Shown here: positions 440-63,900 of the stretch, piece after piece | How positions within the stretch are numbered: position 1 is the stretch's first letter | Layout: every line of letters begins with the position of its first letter | Source: Macrocystis pyrifera | Taxonomy: Eukaryota; Sar; Phaeophyceae; Laminariales; Laminariaceae | Direction of reading: 5' to 3' | Assembly: GCA_031763025.1 (NCBI GenBank) | Contig: JASSKH010000028.1 | Span: 3,404,981-3,468,980 of the forward strand | DNA: 64,000 nucleotides | Made by a program: the position numbers and the translations under genes | The notes under the pieces: model-generated | The model's input: the letters and a program-made list of their open reading frames with translations, nothing else | What the model was told of the DNA's origin: nothing | Databases searched by the model: none

Positions 440-770
440 AGAAAGGGACGACAACTGCTGTTGTTGTTTTCTTCACATTAAACCGTTCTTTCTACGCGTC
501 GACATCCAGCACATGAACCAGTGTCCGTGCCGATTCTTCAAACCTAGAGAGATACAAGTTCTGTGGTCACAAAGCTACGCCACAGAGATACTACGTTGCC
601 ACGTATGTAATGCAATGCCATGTCATCATACTGCGTACGACAGGCACGACATACACATTCCATGACCTAGAGAAACAAAAACGAAACAAAGAGAAAAAAC
701 AAAAACAAAAACAAAGACAATTCGAAAGAGAAAAGAAACAAAAAAAGAAACTAAAATATACCTGGTATAT
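440..770 (+). repeat. Repeat R2, A-rich-tailed dispersed element
   Basis: This element begins near TTCTTCACATTAAACC, contains the CGTCGACATCCAGCA block and the TACGCCACAGAGATA block, and ends in an A-rich stretch (670-755). Related copies lie at 6326-6680, 12190-12540, 10690-10935 (inverted) and 10060-10175 (inverted), with a fragment at 23170-23215. The A-rich 3' end points to retroposition. Read in reverse, GGTTTGAAGAATCGG resembles a B box, but I cannot assign a parent RNA. Confidence 0.65.
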
Positions 771-832
771 GTATATACTTCAGTATAGCAGCAAACCATC
801 GTACCCCCACGTAGGGGACGTGGCAGACACTT

Positions 833-60900: not shown

Positions 60901-63900
60901 AAAGCGTACGTCTACAATCAACTCACCCGCGTCCTCTGAGCGTCCTCCGCCTGGAGCTCCTCGAAGAGGGCGTAGTTGATCCAGAGGTAGATGTAACGCC
61001 TCCAGTACCGCTTGTCCGCTACAGGGGGGACGTTAGCGATCGCGCGCTCGTACACCTTGAGTTCGGGGTTCGTACCAACAGCGGGAGGGGAGGGCGAGGG
61101 GGGGAGGGCCGGGTGATTGGACAAATGAGCAAAAAAGAAAAGCACAGGCCGAGATGAGCGACAGCGTACCCGGCATAGATGGCTTGGACCAGCTCCTCCG
61201 GAAAAAAGGTATCGATAGTACCACAAAAACGCCTCAGCATATATATATATATATATTAATTCCGATAACGTTCTGCACAACGGACGGATCATTGATATCC
61301 AATACGGTAGTGGTTTCTCTATAGTGCCGGTTGCCCGATGTTGTGTCTGTGGAATCGCTCCGCACATGTAAGATTCACTGAAGAGGGGTGGCGTGCGGAG
61401 TAATTAGTGCCGGTTGACGTTGCCGCTGTAGTGCCGGTATTGAATTGGCTGCATGGCGCATATCATACCGGCACTATAGAGGGACCGGCACTATTGCAAA
61501 TGATCTACGGGGGATCATAGTAAAGAGGACCTACGGCACACACAAAACCTATACATTTACATATTTTTACCAACAATATTTGTTCCTATTTACTATGGTC
61601 TCGTAATATTAATAGCGCAGATCATTCAAGACAGATATGCCCCCGATCTGCATGATCTAGCTCACGTTGCCGGGTGGCAGACGTGTAATCTGTACCAGGT
61701 ACGGTCTACAACACTAGCATTATAGCACATGTTTCCTGGATTGGATCTGTGTACTATACAGATCCTGCACCTCATTATCAGAAAGGTAGGTTACGAGCTA
61801 GATGGTCCACTGTACCACTTTGATCGAAAATATAAGCACCGTTGGGTCTTCATATTTAAGTTAAAAGGCTCCATATATTTCCGGCCAGAGTGGTACATCG
61901 TGACCAAGCGGTCGGGGGTAGGGCCCCGCGGCAGGACATCAGGGATTTTTAGAGTCTCAACAAGCTTCAAACACTTCGTCGGAAACACACAGGTGAATTA
62001 GTTGTTGTCATTGTATTTTCCAGTTGACCCTGGGTGCTTGCGTCGGGTGCTGCTTCCCCGCCAACAGTTCAGCACGCCCGCGAGCGTACCCCAACTGCTT
62101 GCTCCGACTGCTCTGCTGCTGCTGCTTACCCTCGCTGATGCTGCTACTAGACCTAAGTTTCTTTGATTTCGCCCGGGGGAGATGCTTGCGCATATCAGGA
62201 GGGTACGCTCGAGTCCTTAGACTCGTTTCGTTTGGTTGTCAGAGGGGCCATCCCCCTTCTCCTCGTCGCGAGTCACGACTACCCCCCCAAAGAAAGTGTG
62301 CAAGCATTCCCAAGTGTTGTCCGTCCTTTGCTCTTCATGTACTTGCTCGTAGATGATGTTGAGACGCGACATCGCTGGTCATTGAGCGCGAGGTACGCAG
62401 GGGCGGGGAAGCGTGAAAAACACTTTATGTTCTCCCCGCGGGGTGACATCGTTTTTTTTTTTTCGTTTTTTCGTCCTGTCCCCCGGGGGAGAGCGACTAA
62501 TTTCGAGTACAAAATTGTTCCCGGGGATACCAAAGAGGTAGGGGGGAGTTCGTAAATAAAAGCTTACTCCCCGGAGATAACACAACGTTTTGACTTTTTC
62601 GGCCATTTGAGGGGGGGGGGGGGGAGGGAAGCAATGGGGGCGGGGCGTTAACAAAGGATATCAAGGTAATTGACTTTACGTCGACCGCTGATGTTACGCT
62701 TCTTTCACAAAAAGTACAGGCCGAGAGATGAACGTTAACAACCGACCCCAACCCTCACAACTTGTGGAACATAGAAGGAAACGGTGAGCGAGGTGATGCA
62801 CGGACCCTCGCGATGATCACGGATGTTCTCACACTCAAGCTCACTTCCCCGAAATCTCGCCCATATACATAGTCACAACACAGGCAGAAACCAAGAAAAA
62901 ATGTCTCAATGGAAGAAAACAAGCAGGTAAAACATCATATATACGTGCACCACAACCGTACCAGCACGCAATGGAACGGTGCTGACATGCTGTGGTATAC
63001 ACTTGCAACCGAATATCATACGTACCGATCATACGTACCGATCATACGTACCGAACACACATCCGAGGTATACATTATACGTACAACAAAAAAAAAAAAA
63101 AAAAAAAAACGCCCCGCTGAGCCATGGTACAGGAGAGGGGCCTTTTTTTGGGCCGAGCATTTTCGAACTGCCTGGGCTCCCTCCTCAACAGAGGACGTCT
63201 ACTATCCCTGGGGATAGGTGCGCGGTAGTGGTCCCTCTATAGTGCCGGTTGCCCGCTGTAGAGCCTGCGGAATGGCTTGGCACACATGGGATTCACCAGT
63301 GTAGTAGCGTGCGAAGTAGTGCCGGTCGCCGTTATAGTGCCGGTATCGTTGGCTGGCGCATATATACCGGCAATACGTATAATAGAGGGACCACTACTCC
63401 ACCATAGCAGGTGTTGGTGAAGCGGCGTATTGGTATAACGCTATATAGAATGGCTGGGCGGTGTAGTGATATCACGGTGGAACGACATGGCCTTGCAAGG
63501 GTATACTAATACAGCGAGAGTGCACCGGGTCCAAGGGATAAAAGTAGGGATATCACCCGGGTACCAATGCACCCCTCTATTACCGTTCGCACTTCCTTTG
63601 GGACACAATACTTGCAGCTCTGAATAGTGTGGGACGCATTTCGCAGGTGGGGAAACGGAATAGTGGCTGCGACAAAAGATCCAGGGCATCGAGGACGGCA
63701 CGGTTTGCTGCTCGTTCAGCGCGAACCTCACATGGATACGTAAAACAGGAAAAAAAAAAAAAAAAAAAAAAAAAAAAAAAACGGCAGGACTACCTACCGC
63801 TGCTGCATCGCGCATTTGATTACCTCTCGCGTGCGGTCCAGGTCGCCCGTAGACTCCTCCAGCCGCAAGTAGTCGAACCAGTTGTCGTAGTCCAACGGGG

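Follow-up and report, generated by a model that had tools for sequence, protein, structure and literature searches.

The palindrome TACCWGGTA occurs in the giant kelp genome in great excess, is embedded in a weaker symmetric flank signature, and has been gained in a few repeat copies as 7-bp insertions. Our tentative explanation, held with slightly less than even confidence, is that a cut-and-paste transposon targeting TA left the sites as scars of its excision; the past presence of the element, the length of its overhang, and the repair step are what we infer. If the sites are true footprints, giant kelp has recorded about 120,000 past excisions in readable form, hidden 'hit-and-run' DNA transposon activity becomes measurable, and ready markers for kelp genetics are available. 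If a protein instead holds them, an exact sequence would be recognised at a density unusually high for a eukaryote.

Frequency, spacing, and decay of the motif

The window is the whole 64-kb stretch of DNA that was analysed. All 28 sites listed for it in the preliminary description are present as exact matches. The positions given there were right for 25 of them and off by one for three (759, 6019, and 61693 replace 758, 6020, and 61692). About 0.5 sites had been expected by chance, and 100 dinucleotide shuffles of the window agree with this (0.41 expected, sd 0.65, maximum 3). The TACCWGGTA sites are given below with coordinates, strand ('.' throughout), and context.

759..767, strand '.', SINE-C tail; site common to the copies in L121 and L122
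1983..1991, strand '.', tRNA-like SINE-B copy that has gained 17 bp, the site among them
3397..3405, strand '.', exact match
3906..3914, strand '.', exact match
6019..6027, strand '.', exact match
7779..7787, strand '.', next site 14 bp on
7793..7801, strand '.', exact match
9688..9696, strand '.', exact match
10717..10725, strand '.', SINE-C copy; flanks of low complexity, alignment ambiguous
12342..12350, strand '.', SINE-C copy; exactly 7 bp between filled and empty copies
17502..17510, strand '.', exact match
17529..17537, strand '.', exact match
18647..18655, strand '.', exact match
20381..20389, strand '.', upstream of all kinase pieces found
22191..22199, strand '.', between kinase pieces (putative intron)
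22438..22446, strand '.', between kinase pieces
22497..22505, strand '.', between kinase pieces
22540..22548, strand '.', between kinase pieces
23240..23248, strand '.', between kinase pieces
26836..26844, strand '.', end of a TAC microsatellite; alignment ambiguous
27605..27613, strand '.', between kinase pieces
28426..28434, strand '.', between kinase pieces
39614..39622, strand '.', exact match
42052..42060, strand '.', exact match
45861..45869, strand '.', paralogue at 45705-45795 has other letters there and small gaps; not decisive
52623..52631, strand '.', tandem overlapping 52630 with a 7-bp step; between CRNKL1 exons
52630..52638, strand '.', second unit of the tandem
61693..61701, strand '.', SINE-D copy, 7-bp gain relative to other copies; between CRNKL1 exons

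When 256 half-sites were combined with 12 spacers (3,072 combinations), TACC-1-GGTA was the top-enriched inverted repeat of the window, with 31 occurrences against 1.6 expected. The other eleven spacers (0 and 2 to 11) gave 0 to 4 occurrences of TACC..GGTA each. The centre base is W in 28 of the 31. The gap from 28.5 to 39.6 kb described earlier is real, and 22 of the 28 sites lie within the first 28.5 kb (p=0.0004). The sequence GTACGTAC had been said to be often nearby; it lies within 60 bp of 3/28 sites, above the 0.48 expected but hardly often, and TACGTA does so at 9/28 (2.0 expected).

The excess is not confined to the window. Over the whole assembly (537,376,219 bases in 223 contigs), TACCWGGTA was counted 121,279 times against 2,421 for the same letters reversed, about 50-fold and far above background. 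The longer ATACCWGGTAT was found 20,445 times against 98 for its reversed control. In 200 kb taken from 20 contigs, at the same coordinate in each, there were 73 motifs with 1.9 expected. No earlier description of TACCWGGTA was found in open-licence PMC papers. An exact motif string occurs in 217 papers, and the titles among the matches listed suggest primers or barcodes. Paired motifs occur in at least 120 stretches of viral contigs, and the matches listed yielded no relative. In five of the six viral stretches with the most motifs, these were tandem, collagen-like, or otherwise repeated words, and in the sixth they were scattered and low in number.

Near matches fall away quickly. A count over 264 kb, the window among them, gave 101 exact motifs with 2.7 expected (37-fold), 95 one-mismatch motifs with 57 expected, and 492 two-mismatch motifs with 574 expected, an excess of 98, 38, and none, respectively. 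The sole hint of a variant scar is TACCGGTA, with 15 occurrences against 3.7. In a neutral set at steady state, copies decayed by one step should about equal the exact copies in number. Some decay is present, but the low one-mismatch excess means that the set looks young or partly constrained.

One exact palindrome enormously over-represented across a genome is also seen in HIP1 of cyanobacteria (GCGATCGC). A eukaryotic counterpart, in which methylation-linked repair on the CCWGG core would create and keep sites, would explain why an exact palindrome is so frequent and why numbers drop sharply at one mismatch, and the frequency of HIP1 tracks methyltransferases according to an excerpt of PMC4390886. 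One-letter variants of HIP1 are, in the same excerpt, biased to the outer letters, whereas every one of the eight arm positions of the kelp motif has 6 to 11 variants, with no end bias. The kelp motif also differs in belonging to a eukaryote, in being an odd palindrome, and in its mode of gain, which is insertion wherever it is cleanly visible. A HIP1-like process is therefore extremely doubtful.

Two genes were placed in the window. Protein kinase pieces on the plus strand from 20.7 to 35.4 kb were taken as one gene (best Pfam match 1.1e-7, other pieces weaker; best PDB match TAK1, 5e-5), and pieces of a crooked-neck-like splicing factor (CRNKL1) lie on the minus strand at 51.8-63.9 kb (E 1.1e-35 for the best PDB match). 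Sites between the pieces of either gene are presumably intronic. A splice-site reading (CAG/GTA) was dropped because the sites between kinase pieces include both orientations. Rfam and tRNA searches gave no match, and a six-frame Pfam search of the first 19.8 kb gave no family.

The motif could also be the recognition site of a dimeric DNA-binding protein, such as a regulator or a factor of chromatin architecture, with selection preserving it in non-coding DNA. Its consensus is symmetric and degenerate and has A/T roughly one helical turn away from the centre, which would suit such a protein, as would its clustering in the window, where five pairs of adjacent sites are spaced within 60 bp against 0.7 expected. 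The earlier statement that no site lies in an exon holds over the 11 exon pieces that were placed and is in keeping with selection in non-coding DNA, but these pieces total 1,638 bp, too little DNA for a test. A genome-wide excess of 50-fold exceeds the usual enrichment of binding sites and speaks against this explanation. So do the repeat copies described below, and we regard a selected binding site as unlikely.

Gains between copies of repeats

Besides a bound site, the preliminary description suggested a mobile or mutational product of very small size. This idea has support insofar as the motif appears as a net gain in cleanly comparable repeat copies, three times of 7 bp (12342, 61693, and L131:2044) and once of 17 bp (1983).

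In SINE-D, the motif is present at one position in 2 of 22 aligned rows, those of the window (61693) and L165, and absent in 20. The window copy is 7 bp longer than the empty copies, 15/20 of which read GCA at the position, six of these GCATGATC in full. Both filled copies read CTG-TA-CCAGG-TA. The pattern ATAATCTGYA-N7-TGATCTA has a single genome-wide match, in C204, and this is TA-CCTGG-TA. Thus, the same position has been filled with different centres, A in the window and L165 and T in C204. A wider pattern allowing 1 to 14 letters had 217 matches; among the 100 listed, one further motif with extra bases was found, and most were one array-borne sequence. Since the empty copies mostly have CA rather than TA at the target, a C-to-T change must precede filling, a point against the excision explanation.

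The SINE-D copies in L165-L184 have one TA position (a single TA in L167 and L169) that is hypervariable across many copies. Its TA-bounded fillers include CG, CAG, CAGCAG, TATATA, and CTC plus CCTGG. The sequence ATAATCTGCAGGATCCGTATGATCTA recurs at steps of mostly 11-20 kb on contigs C8, C149, C160, C169, and C187, which suggests long arrays of a large unit.

By our own reading of the alignment, 24 SINE-C rows comprise eight with the exact motif, seven with an altered motif, and nine without it; the copies are the best matches of a motif-holding query. Clean empty copies are shorter by exactly 7 bp and have a single TA where filled copies have TA..TA, a doubling like that in a Tc1/mariner footprint. 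Because the difference is common to a subfamily, it may be a single event in that subfamily. The empty copies could alternatively have arisen by deletion between GTA repeats. Alteration of 7/15 filled copies fits less well with a bound site kept by selection, as does gain by a 7-bp insertion; the small one-mismatch excess (38 against 98 exact) may reflect either youth or constraint. Elsewhere, the SINE-B copy at 1983 has 17 extra bp relative to four other SINE-B copies, and L131:2044 has exactly 7 extra bp relative to a neighbouring copy.

Another possible source of the excess is that the sites are merely carried by SINE and other repeat families. Sites 759 and 12342 are in SINE-C copies whose site is common to others; several places recur as pairs about 400 bp apart among those listed on contig C1; and 44/106 sites in the 276 kb have some repeat match within 150 bp. 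A repeat copy that spans the site, however, is present at just 13/106, and most sites in this sample are thus unexplained by the one longer family that had been considered. Besides the four gains, the spanned sites include four ambiguous ones (10717, 26836, 45861, and L142:3672) and two that were left out (L123 and L140:6826). The site at 759 and those of L121 and L122 are one family site, of which one further copy is letter-changed and another lacks the motif in low-complexity sequence. Carriage by repeats seems quite improbable as the general explanation, and the flanks described next add to the case against it.

Flank signature and target choice

The motif is embedded in the weaker symmetric signature WAANNNR-TACCWGGTA-YNNNTTW. 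The flanks had been described as mostly A/T, which is partly correct: a left A together with a right T is found at 7/28 sites, and a purine outside the half-site is the clearer rule. Such a purine occurs at 49/56 half-sites of the window and at 178/206 half-sites of 103 distinct sites in the 276 kb, a set that includes four loci picked for holding the motif; the baseline for a purine before TA is 60%. In the 103 sites, A, A, and T/A are favoured at distances 5, 6, and 7 from the motif, and nothing is clear from 8 on. Beyond 8 bp, their flanks have no sequence in common, which also argues against carriage by repeats.

A flank score for TA sites was derived from this preference. The empty SINE-D place (scored as TA) ranks at the 99.7 percentile and the SINE-C place at the 97.8 percentile, in a model of 101 sites that includes both SINE sites. 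In cross-validation, 94 per 1000 TA sites in the top 1% of scores are filled, compared with 7 per 1000 overall. The targets of SINE-B 1983 and L131 score low (34th and 68th percentile) and are a misfit to the preference.

Two other TA places were searched for fillings. At SINE-C GGATA^CGAC (79.5 percentile), CCWGGTA was found in 0/9 seven-base insertions, and at SINE-A GGTA^CGTG (47.5 percentile) in 0/100 among the matches listed of 151 insertions. Insertion at any TA without target choice was dropped on these counts. The 264-kb sample has one copy of the SINE-C 18-mer, which gives perhaps 2,000 per genome, and TA sites in the 75-90 percentile band are about 1% filled in the sample. About 20 fillings would then be expectable at SINE-C GGATA^CGAC, a rough estimate that assumes SINE-C copies old enough. 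Because none was found in the nine insertions, our confidence in the excision reading was lowered from even to slightly below even.

Six of the nine seven-base insertions at SINE-C CTGGATA^CGACAGG in the genome are exact CTGGATA duplications. Tandem duplications of 7 bp are above chance in the sample (43 against 16).

Possible excision scars or repair-made insertions

In the excision reading, an element would insert at a preferred TA with flanks like WAANNNR..YNNNTTW. It would then be cut out, and the rejoined break would retain CCWGG, a core of 5 nt, with a copy of the TA on each side. The 5-nt overhangs would pair with themselves except at the middle base, and repair of the A.A or T.T mismatch would give W. 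A few hopping copies would suffice for many scars. Furthermore, G-TA-C within a scar could itself be a target, producing overlapping tandems with a 7-bp step. The excision reading is supported by the 7-bp gain at a chosen place, the doubled TA, and the A/T centre that differs at the same position. The young look of the set also speaks for it. Overlapping tandems stepped by 7 bp account for the most frequent short spacing (6 steps among 106 sites), and since they share a TA, they fit re-use of the same target and count against a selected binding site.

The footprint of Sleeping Beauty reads TA-C(A/T)G-TA. The kelp motif is similar in that TA flanks each side of a short core that is self-complementary around an A/T centre, and both centres occur at the one SINE-D position. 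According to an excerpt of PMC7827188, the footprint of Tc1/mariner elements such as Sleeping Beauty derives from the overhang and includes the TA duplication, and the overhang of Sleeping Beauty and mariner is 3 nt, not 5. Unlike that footprint, the kelp core is 5 nt instead of 3, and the motifs are far more numerous and uniform.

No parent element with matching ends was found in the 276 kb. There, 101 occurrences of TACCWGG outside the motif have no common terminal sequence beyond known repeats. The same sample was scanned for inverted repeats flanked by TA (seeds of 9 letters, 40-4000 bp), and the only ones starting with CCWGG were motif pairs and one case in a large duplication. Stowaway/mariner-type MITEs resemble the motif in being TA-flanked, and the window has a MITE family of that look, which was rejected as the parent because its ends are TTACGGGGG, not CCWGG. 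This MITE-like family is about 110 bp long (26929-27037, 11025-11140, 24646-24762, 52466-52586, 56929-57038, 57994-58100, and 61506-61608). All four TAGGWCCTA palindromes of the window lie within it.

Two further observations count against the excision reading. The scars are nearly all alike, and excisions in rice are mostly messy, with 8/94 perfect in an excerpt of PMC4423477. The centre base is the same in 12/14 site pairs less than 31 bp apart, which random mismatch repair does not predict; it is mixed in 2/3 seven-step pairs among those listed on contig C1.

The nearest rival needs no transposon: during repair or replication at certain TA sites, a TA break or slipped palindrome would be filled directly with CCWGG and the TA doubled. 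Several findings agree with it besides the missing parent element. Other TA-bounded words are in excess, including TA-CG-TA (152 against 60), TA-CWG-TA (92 against 38), TA-TTAA-TA (55 against 5.7), and TA-CAGCAG-TA (26 against 1.5). The hot SINE-D TA has received many different TA-bounded fillers, one with CCTGG, and the SINE-A TA insertions are mostly short local duplications among the matches listed. The 37-fold excess of CCWGG, however, is at odds with such a process, though some microsatellite and MITE words reach an equal or greater excess. In addition, the R / AAW signature out to 7 bp occurs at CCWGG only, among five TA-bounded cores compared, and this points to a site-choosing protein. 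We consider a repair-made insertion possible but somewhat unlikely, and a selected binding site less likely.

A different origin of excision scars would be a germ-line system that removes TA-bounded DNA, with an outcome like that of internal sequence elimination in ciliates. A dedicated enzyme would recognise WAANNNR-TA-YNNNTTW and leave CCWGG, and the assembled genome would have about 120,000 scars, with intact elements rare or absent. We hold such a system to be very improbable.

Other repeats were noted in the window. A fold-back element at 135-370 is a near-perfect inverted repeat with 72-nt arms (99%), and a partial copy lies at 6834-6899. A SINE 23-mer had no match in viral and genome contigs, nor did a LINE protein in viral contigs. 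A SINE-like repeat occurs at 878-1220, 4603-4945, 8405-8744, 8902-9253, 12544-12878, and 18742-19074. It is about 330 bp long, one end is tRNA-like, and it has an oligo-T/A tract; its pairs are about 89-97% identical. A 2-kb minisatellite of 15/18-bp AGTAGTGTTAATAGTGGT-like units (23313-25482) lies beside a cluster of five motif sites.
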